A program made the position numbers and the translations under genes. Below, in pieces: positions 2,860 to 28,939 of a stretch of DNA of 31,909 nt (position 1 is the first letter of the stretch; each line of letters begins with the position of its first letter). Source of the DNA: a virus; IMG/VR virus record IMGVR_UViG_3300042691_014705, positions 1 through 31,909 of that record; one strand, given 5' to 3'. The notes beneath the pieces were generated by a model. The model did no database searches, was not told the DNA's origin, and worked only from the letters and a program-made list of their open reading frames with translations.

Positions 2860-4674
2860 TTACCTCCTATAATTTTTACCGTTTACGCCATAAATTGGGT
2901 TATCAGGGAGAAAGCCGTTAAAATCTTGATCCACGGGCAAAAGAGCGACCCGAATATCGTTCCGCACCGTATAGCCCATTTTTTCGGCTCTTTTAACCGC
3001 GATTTGTTGAGCATCATTAGCGAGCGGGTTAATTCCTTTGGCATTTATATAAACCTCTTTTTGCCAAAAGTGGTAACAGTTGCCGCCGCCTTTATAGAGC
3101 CAAATCGAGTAATAATCCGAACCGTATGGGCCCCAGCCTCGATTAACGGCTTTTTCCTCCATTGCCTCAATATCCTCTTTTCTGTACAGCTTATCGGCGC
3201 TAATCATTTTTTTACAAAATTCGCGCTCAGTTGCCGCGTTTCCTTTATATCGGTAGCGCGTCATAAAAGTAATTCCCGCGTAGTTTGTGGAATCTTGTTC
3301 GCTGGGCCTCATTGGCTGAGCGCTTCCCGTGCTCGCTAATTCGTGAGCCTCGATTTTAACGAGTTCCTCGTTTTCTTTATCGTCATTCATGTAATCGACC
3401 TCATAACTATCGATTAAAATATAACCCGAGGGCGGTTCGGTTCCGAGGGCTATCAGCTCCTCGGCGATTTCCGAACCCAACGCCTCGAGCTCGCTTGTTT
3501 CACGGGCGCAACAAACGGCCTTTTTTTTTTCAACCTCAAGAGCTTGAGTAATCGGAGCCGCTGGCGTCGGCTCAACCTTAACGGGCGGCGTTAACATTAG
3601 CGGCGAATTTGGAATTACCGTAATAGTTAGGTTAGGCATTTCGTAGCTCAATATCTCCTCAAGGCCCGAGGCTAGTTTTCTTTGAGCGGGTTCGACCACT
3701 TGGTTAGTGAAAATCTCAAGGCCGACCGCCATTTCATCTTTATTCGAACCAAAACCGCCCCCAACGTCACGAATTCCGAAAAGTAAAGGGGTAACCACGC
3801 GGTGAGCGACCATTATTAGGGACGTGCTCTCTTTACTTAAAAACTCGTATTGTTTGTCAGCATCCGAAAGGGGAAACGTTGTTATTTCAGGTTTCGGCGT
3901 ATCGCGCTCGTTGAAAGTCATTATAAACTTTCCCGCGTTTCGGGCGCCTGTTAACTCGCGTTCCCAATCCCTCTTCATGTCCCTTTGTTGCTCAGGGTCG
4001 GGCGCGCCTTGAAATAACGAAACTATCATTGAAGGGCTGAGCCCGTTCATAATATTATTCACGTGGTAAACGCTTATTTCCTTTGCCAGCTCAATCGAAT
4101 TTATTGCCGAGTAATAATCGGGGCGCGGGTAAATATTAGCGCCACAATAGGCGAACTTGTAAAAGATTTGGCGCGGCTCCTCGGCGTTATTCGTTGGATT
4201 GTAAACGGGCGAAAATTGAGGCTTGTTCTTTTTTTTGCGAGTATTCGCCCAATCATTGGAATGATAAACCCCAACTATCTCCTCCTCCTCACCTGTTACC
4301 GCTATTCGGCACTCCTCGAATGGCAAATGGCGAATTTTAGCAATTGAAAGGCGATCAACCGAATAAATTACCTCGATATAATAGCCCCCGAATTTTTTAT
4401 AATCATGAGCGCAACCGTAAAAAACATCGTAAGCACTCAAAGCCTCCAAACGGCCGTTATATTGCCCAGCCTCGAGGCGTTTGCCCGCGAACATATCTCC
4501 AATCGATACACAAAGGGAACCGTGAACGGCGCCCGTCGCGGCTAATTCTGAGATATATTGCGGAAATAAATTATCGACCCCGTAATTAACCCAGCCCGAA
4601 CGGTCGATTTTTTCGGCTGAGCTCCTAACCGTATAATCGGCGAGGGAAATTCGTTTAACGTTATGGGTTTCCAT
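2860..4674 (-). CDS. portal protein with C-terminal extension
   Basis: 604 residues. The first ~385 have portal character: an N-terminal segment with WVNYGVDNLFPQYI, a clip/wing region, and a long region (IMNGLSPSMIVSL, QQRDMKRDWERE, STSLIMVAHRVVTPLLFG) like that of Bacteroidota siphophage portals, which form the dodecameric DNA gateway. The last ~165 residues form a separate domain with RYRYKG, EREFCKKM and GGNCYHFWQ, joined by a Glu-rich linker. I have seen similar domains attached to head-maturation proteins in this phage group, but its role is unknown. The gene overlaps its upstream neighbour by 14 nt. Confidence 0.75.
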   Translation of the reverse strand: METHNVKRISLADYTVRSSAEKIDRSGWVNYGVDNLFPQYISELAATGAVHGSLCVSIGDMFAGKRLEAGQYNGRLEALSAYDVFYGCAHDYKKFGGYYIEVIYSVDRLSIAKIRHLPFEECRIAVTGEEEEIVGVYHSNDWANTRKKKNKPQFSPVYNPTNNAEEPRQIFYKFAYCGANIYPRPDYYSAINSIELAKEISVYHVNNIMNGLSPSMIVSLFQGAPDPEQQRDMKRDWERELTGARNAGKFIMTFNERDTPKPEITTFPLSDADKQYEFLSKESTSLIMVAHRVVTPLLFGIRDVGGGFGSNKDEMAVGLEIFTNQVVEPAQRKLASGLEEILSYEMPNLTITVIPNSPLMLTPPVKVEPTPAAPITQALEVEKKKAVCCARETSELEALGSEIAEELIALGTEPPSGYILIDSYEVDYMNDDKENEELVKIEAHELASTGSAQPMRPSEQDSTNYAGITFMTRYRYKGNAATEREFCKKMISADKLYRKEDIEAMEEKAVNRGWGPYGSDYYSIWLYKGGGNCYHFWQKEVYINAKGINPLANDAQQIAVKRAEKMGYTVRNDIRVALLPVDQDFNGFLPDNPIYGVNGKNYRR

Positions 4675-6628: not shown

Positions 6629-7240
6629 TTATTTTTTTAAATTTTCTATATTCTTTTTGATACGTTCGCCGAGCGTCATTTGGTTAAAAGGCTTTTCGCT
6701 TTTTTCAGTTCCCAAAACGACGCGGGTTGTAGTTTTCTCTTTTACTGAGGCGATAGCGGGTTGCTTTTTTACCGCGGCCAATTCAGCCTTAACAGCGCTC
6801 AGGTTTTCGCCAGCCTTTGCGGCCTCACCCTTAACGCGAGAAAGCTCAGTTTCCAACGCGGTTTTTTCACCCTCAAGGGTTGAAACGCGCTCGCTCAGTT
6901 TATTAATTGCGCTTAGCAAATCGTCGGAACTCATTTCCTCCTCGAGCTCAGGAATACCCATTTCGGCGATTTGTGAAGCCTCGTTAACGTCGATAAATTC
7001 GCCGCTCTCGAGTTCGTAACGGCCCGCGGCCGCTGGGACTTTGTTACCCTCTTCGTCCTTAGTATAAACGTCGGAACCAATCGCGAAACTTTCGGCGCTT
7101 GTATAGATGGGCGTCCCATCTTGTAACCTGCCCTCGAGCTCTAACTGAACCTCTTCTAATTTTATACCGTGAACGCTAGGATCAATCCCAAACTTTGAAA
7201 AAATACCTTTCAAAGATTCTTTTAAATTGGTTTTAGACAT
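6629..7240 (-). CDS. capsid scaffold protein
   Basis: 203 acidic residues with a long predicted coiled coil (about 105-160: LLSAINKLSERVSTLEGEKT and on to VKAELAAVKK), followed by a disordered Lys/Thr-rich stretch and a short C-terminal helix (FNQMTLGERIKKNIENLKK). Scaffolds of HK97-type phages have this layout: an internal coiled coil and a C-terminal capsid-binding helix. It lies between the XkdF-type protease, which would degrade it, and the capsid gene, 9 nt from the latter. The family is inferred from architecture and position. Confidence 0.75.
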   Translation of the reverse strand: MSKTNLKESLKGIFSKFGIDPSVHGIKLEEVQLELEGRLQDGTPIYTSAESFAIGSDVYTKDEEGNKVPAAAGRYELESGEFIDVNEASQIAEMGIPELEEEMSSDDLLSAINKLSERVSTLEGEKTALETELSRVKGEAAKAGENLSAVKAELAAVKKQPAIASVKEKTTTRVVLGTEKSEKPFNQMTLGERIKKNIENLKK

Positions 7241-7343
7241 TGCGTTTTAAATTTGCCTATTTAACGGAAAGGCCCCTTTTTTTCCCTATTTTCGCCCCGT
7301 TATCGAGCTCGCTCGTTGTGTGATATAGTTTATTTGTTGAATG

Positions 7344-7373
7344 AAAAAGGGCCCCTCGTTTGGAGCCCTTTTT
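7344..7373 (-). terminator. intrinsic terminator between protease and scaffold genes
   Basis: A5GGGC...GCCCT5: GGGC (7349-7352) pairs with GCCC (7365-7368), extended inward by two further pairs around one mismatch and outward by A-U pairs. Each strand has a U run after the stem, so it can work in both directions. It stands in the 165-bp gap before the scaffold gene, the longest gap in the late unit. I see no clear TAnnTTTG promoter in that gap, so the hairpin may act as a partial terminator or RNA-processing signal. Confidence 0.6.
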
Positions 7374-7405
7374 ACACTTCACCCTTAAACACTAGTAAAA
7401 ACACA

Positions 7406-7996
7406 CTATTTACCAAACCCAGCAAACAGGCTCTCAATTTCCGCTATTGCCAAAGCCTCAGGGCTCAGGGCGCCCATTGTCAACCCGACGTGATCAAAGT
7501 AACCCTCAATAGAAAACCCTTTTACTTTTCCCTCTTTTACGCTCGCCCATATTTCGGGGTTATCTACTTTCGAACCAATTAACCACGTACCCACAGGGAC
7601 GTCGATTCCCAAATGAACGCTTTTATCATTCTCGCCCTCTTTATACCAACTCTCTACAACCGTAACCCCCTCAATGGGTTTCACGTGCTCAAACGTGTGA
7701 GCGTGTTGAAAGCCGTTTTTCATGAATGAGTGAGCACAGTTATAAATTGTCTCTTTATCGAAAACGATATAATACTCCTCGCCCGTTTCCCTGTCTACTC
7801 TTAAAATTGGTTTATCGGGAATCAAAGCGGGGCCGTATAACATACGCCTCTCGTTATCCAACGCCTCGAGTTTAACGGCTTGTTTTAATGCAACCCAGTT
7901 GCTCTCAATGGCGGGAAATTCAACTAGCGAAATCGCCTCAACCCCGAGATTACCGTCGGGCCCCACTACGCACTTAACTATTTTTTTCTTATCCAT
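7406..7996 (-). CDS. XkdF-like prohead protease
   Basis: 196 residues from the ATG at 7996 (MDKKKIVKCVVG); the frame is open to a GTG at 8023, but the ATG gives the natural start of this family. It matches Peptidase_S78_2 (XkdF): a head-maturation serine protease. Visible signatures are the His-containing segment HAHTFEHVKP (His100/His104), the strand VGTWLIGSKV, and the nucleophile region VKGFSIEGYF with Ser162. It should cleave the scaffold and capsid arms during prohead maturation. The next two genes are scaffold and capsid, the standard partners. Confidence 0.85.
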   Translation of the reverse strand: MDKKKIVKCVVGPDGNLGVEAISLVEFPAIESNWVALKQAVKLEALDNERRMLYGPALIPDKPILRVDRETGEEYYIVFDKETIYNCAHSFMKNGFQHAHTFEHVKPIEGVTVVESWYKEGENDKSVHLGIDVPVGTWLIGSKVDNPEIWASVKEGKVKGFSIEGYFDHVGLTMGALSPEALAIAEIESLFAGFGK

Positions 7997-8045
7997 TTTT
8001 TTTATATTTGTAACGAATTTCACAAATTCGATTCAGGTTTGGCAT

Positions 8046-8075: not shown

Positions 8076-10373
8076 TTATAAACGGCTCAAATCCTGAACC
8101 CTTTCGCGAGCCTCCAAAGCGGTCGCCACGTCCGAGGCTAAAACATATGTTTGCCGCGGGGTTGTATTAATTTGCTGAGCCGCGTTCGCCAGCGGGTTAA
8201 ATTGAGGGACGGTTTGAGTATTGCCCGCCGAGGGCCCGCCTCCCGAACTACCTAAATTCGTATTATTACTCGAGGTGCTGGGCGGCGTTGAGCTTTCATA
8301 TTTCTGAGCCTTAATTTTCGCCACGTTAGCAAGTCCCGCCGCAACCGCCGCACCCGCCGCAATAAAGGCGCGCGCAATACTACTCGGGTCGCCAGGTGTA
8401 ACCTGAGAGGCATAAGCCGCCGTCGCGCTTGTATAAGTATTAACCGCGGTTTGAGCGATTTGTAATTTTTTGTTTCGTTCGAACGCCCGTTTTTTTCCCG
8501 CCTCGTCTTGACGCGAAAAGCCTTCATTTAAAGAAAGTAGCGTCGAAATTCCCGCTTGAGCCGTTTGGCTTATCGACTGGCTCGTTTTCATAAACGAATC
8601 GATTCGGTCTTGTTGCCTCTTTTCATCGTCGGCTTTTTCGGCGTCGCGGTATTCCTGATTAATTACCCTTAATTTCTCTTCTTGTTCACGAACTAACTCA
8701 GCCTCGAGCGTGGCGTTATCAGCGGCGAGTAAAAATTTAGCATCGTACTCCGCGACTAAATCGTCAATCGCTTTTTGTTTCTTTTGCTCATTGGCCGAAA
8801 GTTTGTTTAACTCGATTTGTTGCTCGAGGTTAAATAATTCGTTTTCTTTTTGAATTCGCGCCTCGTTTTCCTTTACGGCCTCGGCTTTTATCCTCTCAAG
8901 GTTGGCCGCGTCCGCGGTTTCCTGTGCGGCGATTTCCTGAGCGGTGTATTTATCGCGCACCGCTTGACGTGCTAAAAATTCGGCCTCCTCGAGTTGAGCC
9001 AAAAGCTCGGTATTTTTGCCCGCTTTTTCCTGTAAAGCGTTATATTTCAACTCGAGCTGGCGTAATTCGCGATCCTCTTCACTTAAACCCGCCTGAAAAC
9101 GGGCTTCCTGTGCCTCTAAAATAGCGGCGGTGACCTCGGTTTCGTTTTGTTTTATTTGCTCGCGTCGACGCTCAGCCGCGGCCCTTGCTTTTTCGGCCGC
9201 CTTTTCAGCATCGGCCGCCGCTTTGTTGGCCGCCTCCTCACGGGTTTTCGATACTTCCGAACCTTCCCGCTCCGCCTCTTTTATTAAAATCTCGGTATTT
9301 GCCTCAGTTGCTTTTTGGCGGGCATCGAGTTGCTCTTTTGTGAGTTGAACGCCTTTCTTTTCGAGGGCGTTTACATCGTTTATTAACTTATCATTTTCGG
9401 CGATTGCCTTGTCGCGAAATTCTTTATTAACCGCCTCGACATCCTGACCCGTTTTTTGAGCATTTGCCACGGCCAAACGGCGAGCGTTTTCGAGTTTTTT
9501 CTGATTACCCTCGAGACTACCGATAGCCGAATCAACCGCGTCAGCCGCCGCCACCGCCGTTAATCCAATCGCGTCGGTAAAACCTGTTATCGTATCTTTT
9601 ACCGCGCCAATTACGGAACCGATAACCTCGAAAGCCGTTCCAACGCCAGGGATAACGTTCGCCAGCTTATCGAAATTGGTTACTATTAAGGCGATAACCG
9701 AACCAATTAAAAAAATCGGGTTGGTTAAAAGAGCTTTACCAAGATTTAAAACCGATTTAGTAAAAGCCCCCGAGCCCTCAGTAGCGCCTGAAAAGTTGAG
9801 GCCTTTAACGTTTTTCGCTAGCCCGTTAATACTCTCAGCCGCGCCGCCAAAATCTAACGAACCGAGGCGGCTTTGCAAATTACGGAGGTTGTTTCCCGCA
9901 CTCTCAAAGGCTGGGCCCGCGTTAGCCCCAATCTCCTCATTAAAATCTTTTTGCGCGTCTTTAAGTTGCTCGAGCCTCGTTTTTAAGGCCTGATATTCGG
10001 CCGAGGTTTTCGGAAGCTGAGTAGTTTGAAGCTCATTCGTGAGCTCTTTTATTTGCTGGCGAAAGTTCTTAACGGGTTCGGTTGGCACGTTAGAACCGAG
10101 CTCGTTCAATTTCGCTTTTAATTCGTCGACGGACTGACTAACTACTTTCGAGGAGCCCCCTAGCTCGCGGTATTGCAAAGCTAATTCAGTCCATTCCTTA
10201 GAACTTGGATCGAGTGAGCTCAGTTGCTTTTTTAAATTACCGACTTGTTGGGCCCAACTTTGCGAGGCTTGGCCCGCCGTATTAATCGCGCCAGCTAAAT
10301 TATTGACGCTTTGAACGGCGCCCGAATCGTCGACCGTTAAAACTACTTGAGCTTTTAAACTTTCCTCAGCCAT
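8076..10373 (-). CDS. tail tape-measure protein
   Basis: 765 residues. N-terminal helical part (1-210), two hydrophobic segments (about 213-232, LLTNPIFLIGSVIALIV, and 246-258), a long Ala/Glu/Lys-rich coiled coil (about 280-620), an Ala-rich hydrophobic helix (about 670-690), and a Ser/Asn/Gly-rich low-complexity C-terminus. This is the classical layout of a siphophage tape measure, which fixes tail length and helps DNA entry. At the usual ~0.15 nm per residue it would set a tail of about 115 nm. Its start overlaps the preceding 60-residue gene by 8 nt. Unusually, the tail chaperone gene is ~8 kb upstream instead of adjacent. Confidence 0.9.
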   Translation of the reverse strand: MAEESLKAQVVLTVDDSGAVQSVNNLAGAINTAGQASQSWAQQVGNLKKQLSSLDPSSKEWTELALQYRELGGSSKVVSQSVDELKAKLNELGSNVPTEPVKNFRQQIKELTNELQTTQLPKTSAEYQALKTRLEQLKDAQKDFNEEIGANAGPAFESAGNNLRNLQSRLGSLDFGGAAESINGLAKNVKGLNFSGATEGSGAFTKSVLNLGKALLTNPIFLIGSVIALIVTNFDKLANVIPGVGTAFEVIGSVIGAVKDTITGFTDAIGLTAVAAADAVDSAIGSLEGNQKKLENARRLAVANAQKTGQDVEAVNKEFRDKAIAENDKLINDVNALEKKGVQLTKEQLDARQKATEANTEILIKEAEREGSEVSKTREEAANKAAADAEKAAEKARAAAERRREQIKQNETEVTAAILEAQEARFQAGLSEEDRELRQLELKYNALQEKAGKNTELLAQLEEAEFLARQAVRDKYTAQEIAAQETADAANLERIKAEAVKENEARIQKENELFNLEQQIELNKLSANEQKKQKAIDDLVAEYDAKFLLAADNATLEAELVREQEEKLRVINQEYRDAEKADDEKRQQDRIDSFMKTSQSISQTAQAGISTLLSLNEGFSRQDEAGKKRAFERNKKLQIAQTAVNTYTSATAAYASQVTPGDPSSIARAFIAAGAAVAAGLANVAKIKAQKYESSTPPSTSSNNTNLGSSGGGPSAGNTQTVPQFNPLANAAQQINTTPRQTYVLASDVATALEARERVQDLSRL

Positions 10374-10548
10374 TGAACCAATTAATTAAAAGGTAAATAA
10401 TGAAGCCCCACCAAAGGCCAAAGCTCCCCCACTTAAATAAACGGAAAGCCCAAAGCCTTTTACCTTTTAAAAGTTTGGAAGGCTGAGCGGTTTTAACGCC
10501 CAATCGTAACAGGCTCAAAACGGGTGAAATCGGGTTAACGTTTATCAT
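10366..10548 (-). CDS. small membrane-anchored protein before the tape measure
   Basis: 60 residues: a basic N-terminal half (VKTAQPSKLLKGKRL) and one hydrophobic C-terminal segment (FGLWWGFIIYLLINWF). It overlaps the large tail gene by 4 nt (ATGA at 10545-10548) and the tape-measure start by 8 nt, so it is almost certainly translated with them. A single-pass protein at this position might assist tail assembly at the membrane or be a minor virion component. I know no family for it. Confidence 0.6.
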   Translation of the reverse strand: MINVNPISPVLSLLRLGVKTAQPSKLLKGKRLWAFRLFKWGSFGLWWGFIIYLLINWFNG

Positions 10549-15835: not shown

Positions 15836-18399
15836 ATCGTTAATAATACTTGGTTATTTAATATCGCCGCGCTCGTTCCGCTCGCGTTATTGACGAACTT
15901 CATTCCCATTTGATCGCCGACCGCAACACTAACCGAGTTCACTAAATTAGTAAATACGCCAGCCGCTGAGCCCGCCGCAATGGTTAGCGTTAACGCTTGG
16001 TCAATGCTATTTTTTCGCACCGTGCAAACGAGCGAACCCGTCGCGGGTTGGGCTGTGCTAATCATTACATACAAACGAGTTAACGTGCCGTTCGTTATCA
16101 TTGGCGTCCTTCGCACCGCGTCCGAGGCGTTATGGTTAGCCGAACCGCCAAACAGAGAACCGAATCGAGTAGCGCCAGCGGCCAACGTATCGCCATTGGC
16201 AAACTGATATAAAACCGAGGTTGAACTCGAGGTAATGCCTAGGTCGCTCACCATTTCGGCGGCCGTTCTCGCGGTGACTGTGTTATCGGCGTTAACCCTC
16301 AAGAAAGTCACGGCGCTCGGGTTGGCTAACGTGGCGAGGTTAGTTCCAACCGTGGTTAATCCAATCGCGTTTTGTTTTCCGTTGAACGTACTCCAATCAG
16401 CCGAACTCAACGCGCCCCGATTTGAAGCCGAGGCCGTTGGTAGGTTGAACGTGTGAACGCTTCCCGCTGAGCTAATCCCGAAATCGGTTCCCGCCGTACC
16501 CGTGGCGAAAGTTTGCGTCGAATCGGTTAGCCCGTTCAAAGAACTGAGCCCAATAGCATAGGTTGAATGCACCTCGCCTATTCGCCCGTCCTCAGTGTAA
16601 AGAGTAACTGTTTTTCCGTTTGTGTTTTGAATATCGAACTCAATAGCGACACGATCACTCGCGGCGGTTACGGTATTCGGAACCGAGAGGGCGAACGTGT
16701 AAAGGTCGATTACACTCCCGTTCGTTATTTGCTCAAGTGGTGAGGTTGCGATAGTTGTAAACGTCGTTCCGTTATAAACTTTCAGCACGGCGATAATTTC
16801 GGCGTTATTAGAACCCCCGCCCGTTTCGCTCAAGTATACATCGCACGTCCAAACGCCTGAGGGGATAATTAAATGGTTAGGCGAACCAACGTCCGTTATA
16901 AAGCTCGCAATTACGCCCGTGGTTGCCCGTGTAAAGTTAGCCGCGGGGCCTGTATTCGCCGCCGTGCCCAGCTCATAAAATGGCGAGCCTCCAATCGTAC
17001 CTTGAGAGATATTCCCGTTAAAATAGAATATTTGACCGCCACCGCCTCCCGTGCTCGGAAAGTTGGCGAGCGTGCCGTCGCCCCTTATATACTGCGAGGT
17101 TGTACCCGCACCCGTGACCGCCAAAGTTCCCGCCGTGGTAACAGGTGACCCCGAAACGTTGAAAGCCGTTGGCATCGTTAAACCTACCGAGGTGACCGAA
17201 CCCCCCGAGCTGGGCGTAACGGCCTCCCAATCGCCCGAGGTTGAGTTAAACGCTAAAACTTGACCGTTGGTAGGGGCTGGCGTGTTAACGTCGTTTAAAT
17301 CGTTTAAATCAGCGGGAATAAACGGAAGGTTAATCAGGTCGTTATAATCGCCTGAGGTTGCAACCGCCGCGAGAGTTGGTTTATTCAATATCTCAGCGAC
17401 CCCGCTAACCGCGTTCCAATCCGAATTAACTTGAGCGGCGGGAATAGTTGGAAGGTTGTTTAAATCATTATAATCATTCGAATAAGCAACCGCCCCGAGT
17501 TGGCCGTTATCGAATTGGTTAGTCAGCGCGTTAAATATTAGCGTGTCATTTTGAACGGGCCCGATAATATTAACGTCGCTTAAATCCCTGAGCTCGCTTG
17601 GAATAGTTGGGAAAGGTTGAAGGGCGCCCGTGCCGTCGATGTAATCGCCCGAGGTTCCCGCGCCAGTTATTGCCAACGTGCCCGCGCTCGTTATCGGCGA
17701 ACCTGAAACCGCAAAAGCGGAGGGAACCGTTAACGCCACGCTCGTAACCGTACCCCCACCACCACCGCCGCCGCCCGTGGAATTTATTGTTACGGTTCCG
17801 TTTCCATTATCGATAATGGTTACGTTGGTTCCCTGTTGGAGGTTGAGCAAACTTTGAAGGCCGTTGTTAACGCCGTTCGTTTGCAACGTGAGGCCGACGG
17901 GCGTACCCGTACCGCCTGAGCCTGAGCCTCCGATAGTAAAGTCGGCGGGAATATCGCACGCGCTCCAATCCCAAGGAACCGAGAGCGTCATTTGAAGATT
18001 AACCCCGACTAGCGTATGAGAAAACTCGTTTATAAAAACCTCGATATTGGCGCCCCCATCCAGCTCAACCGTTGGCCCGAAAACGGTTAGCCCGTTTTGA
18101 ACCTCGGCTAATAAATCCTCAGCCAGTTTAATGCAATCGGAAATACATTCCCTTTGATATTCGGCGGGCGTTTCCTTATCGCGTGGCAAATCGGCGAAAA
18201 TGATAACGAACGAATAAAGGCGGCTCCCCGCTCGAGGCTCAACCTCAACGGGTAGAACGTGCATCCACGGGAACTCAACGCCCTTATCAATATCGATGTT
18301 ACTTAAATCGCCGTGCGAAAAGCCCTTTATGAGAAAGTGAGCCGCGGCAAATGCTTTGAACCTCTCGATTAATACGTTATAACTAATTTGGGTTATCAT
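15832..18399 (-). CDS. tail-terminator-like domain fused to a fibre protein
   Basis: 855 residues in two parts. Residues 1-150 (LIERFKAFAAAHFLIKGFSHG, FPWMHVLPVEVEP, YSFVIIFADLPRDKETP) resemble a stand-alone tail-terminator/neck protein of Bacteroidota phages. After a Gly/Ser linker (158-170), residues 170-855 are fibre-like: a glycine run (209-216), two near-identical ~49-residue repeats (217-265 and 401-449), the prophage-fibre motif DYNDLxNLPxIP twice (309-320 and 351-362) and SDWNAVSG...ILNKPTL. The last ~300 residues are a strand-rich, probably receptor-facing domain. The fusion would place fibres at the neck or tail end. Its ATG overlaps the TGA of the frameshifted chaperone. Confidence 0.7.
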   Translation of the reverse strand: MITQISYNVLIERFKAFAAAHFLIKGFSHGDLSNIDIDKGVEFPWMHVLPVEVEPRAGSRLYSFVIIFADLPRDKETPAEYQRECISDCIKLAEDLLAEVQNGLTVFGPTVELDGGANIEVFINEFSHTLVGVNLQMTLSVPWDWSACDIPADFTIGGSGSGGTGTPVGLTLQTNGVNNGLQSLLNLQQGTNVTIIDNGNGTVTINSTGGGGGGGGTVTSVALTVPSAFAVSGSPITSAGTLAITGAGTSGDYIDGTGALQPFPTIPSELRDLSDVNIIGPVQNDTLIFNALTNQFDNGQLGAVAYSNDYNDLNNLPTIPAAQVNSDWNAVSGVAEILNKPTLAAVATSGDYNDLINLPFIPADLNDLNDVNTPAPTNGQVLAFNSTSGDWEAVTPSSGGSVTSVGLTMPTAFNVSGSPVTTAGTLAVTGAGTTSQYIRGDGTLANFPSTGGGGGQIFYFNGNISQGTIGGSPFYELGTAANTGPAANFTRATTGVIASFITDVGSPNHLIIPSGVWTCDVYLSETGGGSNNAEIIAVLKVYNGTTFTTIATSPLEQITNGSVIDLYTFALSVPNTVTAASDRVAIEFDIQNTNGKTVTLYTEDGRIGEVHSTYAIGLSSLNGLTDSTQTFATGTAGTDFGISSAGSVHTFNLPTASASNRGALSSADWSTFNGKQNAIGLTTVGTNLATLANPSAVTFLRVNADNTVTARTAAEMVSDLGITSSSTSVLYQFANGDTLAAGATRFGSLFGGSANHNASDAVRRTPMITNGTLTRLYVMISTAQPATGSLVCTVRKNSIDQALTLTIAAGSAAGVFTNLVNSVSVAVGDQMGMKFVNNASGTSAAILNNQVLLTI
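17053..17199 (-). repeat. fibre repeat, second copy
   Basis: Encodes residues 401-449 of the fibre protein (SVTSVGLTMPTAF...VSGSPVTTAGTLAVTGAG), about three-quarters identical to residues 217-265. A tandemly reused shaft module of this kind is common in phage fibres and can recombine. Confidence 0.7.
17605..17751 (-). repeat. fibre repeat, first copy
   Basis: Encodes residues 217-265 (TVTSVALTVPSAF...VSGSPITSAGTLAITGAG), the partner of the repeat at 17053-17199. It follows directly on the run of eight glycine codons. Confidence 0.7.
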
Positions 18400-19153
18400 T
18401 TTCGATAGCTTTGTTTTATTACTCGGGCTTGTTCGGCCTGAAAATCTCGCATATAACTGAGATGGGTAAAAATCGCCGTGGCTTCCATATCTAAAACGTT
18501 TTCATGCTTGGTTATATCAGTACCCGCCACGCTCTCGAGTACATGATACCAACCCCAACGCGCTAAGCCTGTGGGGGTATAATCTCCTTCATCTCCCTCG
18601 TCAACATCGCGTCCAAAGATTCCAACGAATTGTTCACTAATTCGGCGGCGATACTCGAAAAAAAAAGCAAGCCACCTTGTACTCGATCCATAGTTAACCC
18701 GTTAATCGCTTTCATATAATTTTTAACCTTACTCGAATCGTATTTAACGAGGTTGTAATAATCCCCCACTTGCTCGGTAATTGGCCTGTAAAGTATCGCC
18801 ATAAGCTGAGGGAGGTTCTTATAATCGGTTTGGCCGTTAGTTAGCCAAATGGATTTCGAGAGTTGGTCTAAATCGACGTGCTCGCGGAACGTCATGTTAT
18901 TAATATCGGGAATGAAGCCCAGTTTAACCCCCTGAATGGTTACGGTCGGCGAGTGCGTATCTTTGCCCGTAATGCAAGCCGTCTCGAATAAATCGACAAC
19001 GGTTTGAACCGTTTCGGCCTTGAGCCCCTCGCAATATTCGCGGGACTTGTTTACGGCTATCATTACCTTTTCAACATCGTCGCTCGAGGCGTGGTAATCG
19101 ACGAACCTCTTTAAAGTTATTTGCTCAGCGGAAACGGGAATGTAAAGTTTCAT
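18396..19153 (-). CDS. tail assembly chaperone, long form by -1 frameshift (G-T analogue)
   Basis: Translation from ATG 19153 to the nine-T tract, a -1 slip, then 87 further codons to TGA at 18398-18396, gives 252 residues. The extension has no start codon of its own before its conserved-looking part (FVGIFGRDV, TGLARWGWYHVLESVAGTDI, FTHLSYMRDFQAEQ), so a frameshift is the straightforward way to make it. Its stop overlaps the next ATG as ATGA. Lambda gpG/gpGT and many siphophages make a short and a long tail chaperone this way to load the tape measure. The WGWY...GD/TDI...LSY pattern resembles the distal chaperone part in other Bacteroidota phages. Confidence 0.7.
18563..19153 (-). CDS. tail assembly chaperone, short form (G analogue)
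   Basis: 196 residues read without frameshifting. Contains KLGFIPDINNMTFREHVDLD, LMAILYRPI and, near the slip site, GGLLFFSSIAAELVN. These match the layout of Bacteroidota phage chaperones as I remember them (FGFIPN...EYVDLD, LYRPI, FF..L). It overlaps the small-terminase candidate by 4 nt (ATGA). The codons CTT TTT TTT T at residues 163-166 form the slippery tract, so most ribosomes would end at the TAG at 18565-18563. The gene lies about 8 kb upstream of the tape measure, not beside it. Confidence 0.7.
   Translation of the reverse strand: MKLYIPVSAEQITLKRFVDYHASSDDVEKVMIAVNKSREYCEGLKAETVQTVVDLFETACITGKDTHSPTVTIQGVKLGFIPDINNMTFREHVDLDQLSKSIWLTNGQTDYKNLPQLMAILYRPITEQVGDYYNLVKYDSSKVKNYMKAINGLTMDRVQGGLLFFSSIAAELVNNSLESLDAMLTREMKEIIPPQA
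18658..18667 (-). promoter_or_regulatory. slippery site for -1 frameshift
   Basis: Minus strand C-T9-CGAG. In the zero frame it reads CTT TTT TTT TCG; after a -1 slip it reads TTT TTC GAG TAT and stays open to 18396. A run allowing both A- and P-site tRNAs(Phe) to re-pair is a classic slippage sequence. Confidence 0.7.
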
Positions 19154-28465: not shown

Positions 28466-28939
28466 ATGAAAAAACGTTCTCCCTTTAATTACGTGGCTCG
28501 CATCGAGCGCGTTCAAAAATGGCTAACCGCCAATCCTGGGCTCCACGTTAACGAGATGCTCGACGAAATGAGCGACACCCCTCGAGGTACTCTGAGCTCC
28601 TTAATTTCGTTCATGACTAACGCGGGCCACTTAGTTAGGCATTCGAAAGGCTTTTATGCTTTGCCCGAAATCGTCGCCAGCCCTCGCTCGGTTGCTTACG
28701 ATATCAGAAAAAACAAAGAAACCCCGAATTTATTTAAGCGGGTGAAAGGGGGGGGAGTACTCCCCGAAATGCCCCGAAATGCCCCGAACGGACTCGATGC
28801 GAATAACCTGTTACAACCTGTTACAACTAACGAACAAATCTCGAAAAGCGTCCTAACCGAATTCAACCGAAATCAGGCAATAATGAGCGCCGTCGACGTG
28901 TTGAAAAGTTACGGCGTAAAAGTTACCCTCGAGTTTTAA
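28466..28939 (+). CDS. winged-helix DNA-binding protein, origin-binder candidate
   Basis: 157 residues. Residues ~8-66 form a winged helix (RIERVQKWLTANPGLHVNEM, TPRGTLSSLISFMTNAGHL, VRHSKGFYALPEI). A disordered linker (about 75-130) follows, then a C-terminal helix-strand end (NQAIMSAVDVLKSYGVKVTL). The linker-coding DNA holds a 14-bp palindrome and two sets of tandem 10-bp repeats. The layout (N-terminal winged helix, iterons inside its own gene, then helicase loader and helicase genes) resembles lambda O, which binds iterons in its own coding sequence. Transcriptional regulation is the alternative. Confidence 0.65.
   Translation: MKKRSPFNYVARIERVQKWLTANPGLHVNEMLDEMSDTPRGTLSSLISFMTNAGHLVRHSKGFYALPEIVASPRSVAYDIRKNKETPNLFKRVKGGGVLPEMPRNAPNGLDANNLLQPVTTNEQISKSVLTEFNRNQAIMSAVDVLKSYGVKVTLEF
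28752..28826. repeat. palindrome and tandem 10-bp repeats inside the winged-helix gene
   Basis: GGGGAGTACTCCCC (28752-28765, perfect 14-bp palindrome, preceded by four more G), then CCCCGAAATG at 28762-28771 and 28772-28781, and a degenerate third copy at 28782-28791. A second pair, CCTGTTACAA, lies at 28807-28816 and 28817-28826. The 10-bp period is not a multiple of three, so the DNA repeats do not repeat the protein. Confidence 0.7.

Follow-up and report, generated by a model that had tools for sequence, protein, structure and literature searches.

Does a run of nine T's in one gene of a tailed phage (the slip gene) join two reading frames into a short and an extended protein, and, if it does, what slips on the run and what are the two products for? 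The gene lies in a 31.9-kb virus record, the whole of which was analyzed and is referred to here as the window; the record carries portal, head protease, tape measure candidate, terminase, helicase and sigma-factor-like genes. A sequence-only reading of this DNA had proposed a programmed −1 frameshift in a tail chaperone gene standing apart from the other tail genes.

Reading frames of the slip gene

Direct reading of the frames bore out the arrangement on which this proposal was built. The gene contains C-T9-CGAG, and a −1 slip on the run opens 87 further codons, ending in a TGA (18398-18396) that shares bases with the ATG of the next ORF (Table 1). As had also been claimed, the extension lacks a usable start: there is no ATG, GTG or TTG from the last upstream −1 stop to approximately codon 40 of the extension. 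The long form predicted from the joined frames has about 252 residues. The ATGA overlap is kept in 33 of the 34 complete close relatives, and it may pass ribosomes that terminate in the −1 frame on to the downstream gene.

Table 1. Coordinates of the slip gene, its slip site and the genes discussed with it
Feature	Position in window	Strand	Remarks
Upstream HTH protein, 109 aa	19150..19479	(-)	Stop overlaps slip-gene start
0-frame ORF (short product), 196 aa	18563..19153	(-)	N-terminal 165 residues common to long product; AF2 pLDDT 83
T9 slip run, CTT TTT TTT TCG in frame 0	18658..18666	(-)	Heptamer T_TTT_TTT at 18659-18665
−1 frame extension, 87 codons + stop	18396..18659	(-)	Predicted C-terminal domain of long product (WGWYH...LSYMRD)
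ATGA overlap of extension stop and next ORF start	18396..18399	(-)	Possible translational coupling
Next ORF, 855 aa	15832..18399	(-)	Conserved N-domain fused to tail-fibre-like sequence
Tape measure candidate, 765 aa	8076..10373	(-)	phrog_1538, E 1.1e-13; downstream of slip gene

Conservation of the run in homologous loci

Homologous loci were collected with three queries, namely the 0-frame protein, its distant homologue from Nonlabens phage P12024L and the extension itself; the searches did not select for T9, because the peptides were back-translated degenerately. We obtained 144 distinct loci, which fall into 27 clusters at 80% DNA identity, the most divergent of them at about 25–28% protein identity. 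The run was T9, in the same register, in 142 of them (the window and two cultured phages counted). Of the remaining two, L078 has T10 in the same register, arisen by substitution, and L178 has T8, with the upstream frame stopping shortly past the run; this T8 is probably an error. The sequence-only reading had asked that relatives be compared for a conserved T-run and frame arrangement, and had named as refuting a resequencing with 8 or 10 T's or relatives with two independent genes; in the comparison the relatives share the nine T's, and two independent genes occur in none.

The length of the run is by itself weak evidence, and it is the conservation that gives T9 its significance. The nine-T pattern had three matches in the window (two sites, both strands) against approximately 12 expected from dinucleotide shuffles, and long A/T runs look avoided there. 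Besides the T9, A/T runs reach at least nine bases only once, in an A10 at 3521-3530, on the coding strand of the portal gene (2860-4674, minus strand), where it reads K-K-K and the ORF stays open. A G8 run at 28748-28755, inside the ORF 28466-28939, is a possible phase-variable tract.

A sequencing or assembly error in what is truly one ORF might be suspected, since homopolymers invite such errors, T8 occurs at one locus and phage 6H is apparently broken near the same place, but such an error is ruled out by the agreement on nine T's of 142 of the 144 loci, from many samples and including two isolate genomes, and the overlap of the window's family is moreover constrained in both frames.

The phage group is widespread, aquatic and tailed; its cultured relatives grow on Flavobacteriaceae, and known relatives infect Bacteroidetes. 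Bacterial genome contigs searched with the 0-frame profile gave no relative.

Selection on the two frames

In 32 non-redundant close relatives, synonymous differences in the slip codons numbered 0/1428, compared with 44% upstream, and the Phe codons upstream of the run were TTT in 94 cases and TTC in 92. The diversity at 0-frame codon positions 1/2/3 was 0.25/0.19/0.49 upstream of the run, 0.18/0.22/0.25 in the overlap and 0.15/0.40/0.21 past the 0-frame stop; as the sequences share kinship, these synonymous and position-wise comparisons are given as counts, without formal probability. The diversity pattern is therefore that of 0-frame coding before the run, coding in both frames in the overlap, and −1 coding alone afterwards. 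A distant group (L174-L202) has its overlap under mainly −1 constraint, and the tail of the short form is therefore not always under selection. Taken together, sequence evolution indicates that the T9 run is under strong selection and that the two frames are expressed joined.

Homologues encoded by a single ORF

Among the structural matches of the 0-frame model was Flavobacterium phage 6H, at a low TM-score, and the relatives of this phage led to outgroups that carry both parts in one ORF. These proteins, of 259–301 aa, come from Duneviridae (laban6-1 gp17, 23T, Ingeline_5), Helgolandviridae (Leef_2) and a Microcystis phage; the phages laban6-1, Ingeline and Leef are described as siphophages (PMC7077304, PMC8776804). 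Like the slip gene they combine the N-domain and the extension, and they differ from it in having neither a frame break nor T9. A profile of the joined T9 family aligned with them colinearly on both sides of the junction and through it (hhalign probability 98.5, 235 columns). Against the outgroup C-termini the extension alone scored 33.7, and none of 20 controls with shuffled columns exceeded 19.1; the 0-frame tail, aligned to the same C-termini, gave no match. Since these single-ORF homologues are colinear, the extension and the upstream domain normally form one protein, and the joined product is real. LFF or LYF stands at the junction, without T9, in four of the five outgroup proteins; on these alignments the T9 family has its frame broken at this motif and bridged by the run. 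The homologue in phage 6H itself (L203, 10352-10927) ends at 191 aa, while that of its close relative 23T has 293 aa, and the two sequences diverge over some 50 bases at the junction.

Genes 40/41 of Nonlabens phage P12024L and 38/39 of P12024S (phrog_32199, phrog_38404) share T9, its phase and the extension with the slip gene at about 28% identity, and are annotated as two hypothetical proteins; in the current annotation of the cultured relatives the extension is a gene by itself. That it is an independent small gene, started separately, would agree with the 55-aa ORF annotated in both phages from an ATG inside the extension. In P12024L, however, this ‘gene 41’ corresponds to the last part of the −1 extension, its start having been placed at an ATG within it; start codons of any kind occur in that stretch of the −1 frame in only 3 of 36 close relatives, and the −1 frame homology begins at T9, upstream of the annotated ATG. 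The missing starts and the single-ORF outgroups rule out an independent second gene, and a separate origin of translation for the extension is accordingly given very little credence.

Alternatively, the long form might be the functional protein, with slippage only mending an old frame break and the short form a by-product; the protein would then be a head-tail or tail component and not a chaperone. The outgroups encode only the long form, suggesting that the short one may be dispensable, the 0-frame tail is without constraint of its own in L174-L202, and the slip gene lies near connector-like genes. Within the window's own family, however, the overlap is constrained in both frames, and mere repair should have given way to an indel in some lineage, whereas no member of the T9 group has a fused ORF. 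We regard this explanation as less likely than not, though it keeps an appreciable probability.

Gene order and possible function

The slip gene had been described as isolated and about 8 kb from the tape measure gene. The distance was correct (18396 to 10373), but the intervening order is conserved and these genes all share one strand. The order is HTH, slip gene, terminator-like N-domain, gp10-like, 426 aa, 1071 aa, small ORF and tape measure; it is kept in close relatives and, in outline, in P12024L. The slip gene heads a tail operon, 6–8 kb before the tape measure gene. The slot just before the tape measure, which is the usual one for a chaperone, holds only a 60-aa ORF in the window (10366-10548); relatives conserve this ORF, PHROGs holds no match to it, and P12024L has a 47-aa gene in its place. 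The N-domain of the 855-aa ORF bears a weak resemblance to gene 42 of P12024L, which is a gene of its own (138 aa). Where the same phage has one protease gene of 349 aa (gene 01), the window has two ORFs of 205 and 203 aa (6629-8023), which match its N- and C-terminal parts.

The PHROGs search of the slip gene gave families of unknown function only, the 0-frame protein matching phrog_32199 (E 1.6e-13). Searches of Pfam, NCBIfam and PDB sequences gave no meaningful match, which sets the slip gene apart from lambda gpG/gpGT and the HK97 gp13-type. Foldseek found no significant match in PDB. The viral structural matches of the 0-frame model were uncharacterised proteins followed by the only named ones, two proteins called tail assembly chaperone, both weak (E 0.04 and 0.09), and the top of 324 PDB chains (VIA-align) was the HK97 tail assembly chaperone 2OB9, a weak match of slip-gene residues 1–61 (Z 3.3 over 53 residues). 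AF2 modelled the extension by itself poorly (pLDDT 62).

At the level of sequence, the slip gene shares with lambda gpG/gpGT and the HK97 gp13-type the encoding, by one gene of a long-tailed phage, of a short protein and a −1 extended form, with the slip near the 3′ end. It differs from lambda gpG/gpGT in its T9 homopolymer slip site and in its position, as it is not directly upstream of the tape measure gene and several genes lie between. In Ingeline, by comparison, the tape measure gene begins about 1 kb downstream of the homologue. The tail chaperone function put forward in the sequence-only reading is thus plausible from the weak fold matches, the operon position and the two-product logic, but it is unproven and the gene is not in the expected position; our best guess is that the product would be a tail assembly chaperone. 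No virion proteomics of relatives was seen in excerpts of PMC7077304 and PMC8776804.

RNA polymerase or ribosome

Of the proposed programmed −1 frameshift, one part has strong support from T9 conservation, codon statistics and the outgroups, namely the change of frame that yields a short and an extended protein; the ribosome is less sure as its agent, as an invariant T9 fits RNA-polymerase slippage at least equally. The locus has the marks of both processes: an X_XXY_YYZ heptamer in the 0-frame phase (U_UUU_UUU), and a conserved A/T homopolymer of nine or more at the frame junction. The latter is shared with the 9A/9T transcriptional slippage of Thermus dnaX and bacterial IS elements (PMC1088944, PMC5009743); unlike these, the slip gene belongs to a phage structural operon, and its slippage is a prediction.

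Ribosomal −1 frameshifting on U_UUU_UUU, as in lambda G/GT, would make T9 a heptamer plus bases fixed by flanking coding. The run is in the right phase for tandem slipping, tail chaperone genes are known to change frame by −1 ribosomal shifting, and some phage cases need no stimulators (PMC5009743). However, all nine T's persist though codon 1 varies between L, V and I and codon 4 between S, Y and W, and U_UUU_UUU shifts less readily than A_AAA_AAG in E. coli (PMC5009743). Furthermore, no downstream pseudoknot or hairpin stimulator and no Shine-Dalgarno-like element is conserved across lineages, G-rich wobble sites upstream of the run vary freely, and an Rfam scan of the window gave nothing. 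We regard ribosomal slipping as a realistic explanation that is rather less probable than even.

For these reasons, because runs of nine bases look avoided in the window, and because a large share of bacterial genomes shows such avoidance at nine bases, a length that slips efficiently in vivo (PMC1088944, PMC5009743), we modestly favour RNA polymerase over the ribosome. Dual coding could fix the outer T's (T1 and T9), which weakens the case for the polymerase and leaves it an inference. In the mostly open-access papers that treat both transcriptional slippage and tail assembly chaperones, the text covered reports no polymerase slippage in a tail chaperone gene.

In the mechanism that we propose, the majority of decoding would remain in frame 0 and give the 196-aa form. 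Part of the transcripts would carry an extra U, or part of the ribosomes would step back one base on U_UUU_UUU, and reading in the −1 frame would then yield the long form, with a conserved helical segment as its predicted C-terminal domain. As in lambda gpG/gpGT, the shared N-domain might bind the tape measure and the extension recruit tail tube subunits. To this account as a whole, i.e. two proteins made by programmed slippage at T9, with the polymerase as the likelier agent and a tail chaperone pair as the products, we give a probability of roughly 0.6.

Implications

The slip gene adds a large and cleanly conserved programmed frame change in phages far from the model systems, in a family without functional annotation, and its single-ORF relatives allow the direct question of what the split adds. 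That aquatic tailed phages set the ratio of short to long tail-assembly protein by RNA-polymerase slippage on an invariant T9, and not by ribosomal slipping, is a tentative proposal to which we give slightly less than an even chance. If it is the polymerase that slips, these phages would meter their tail-assembly ratio at transcription rather than at translation.
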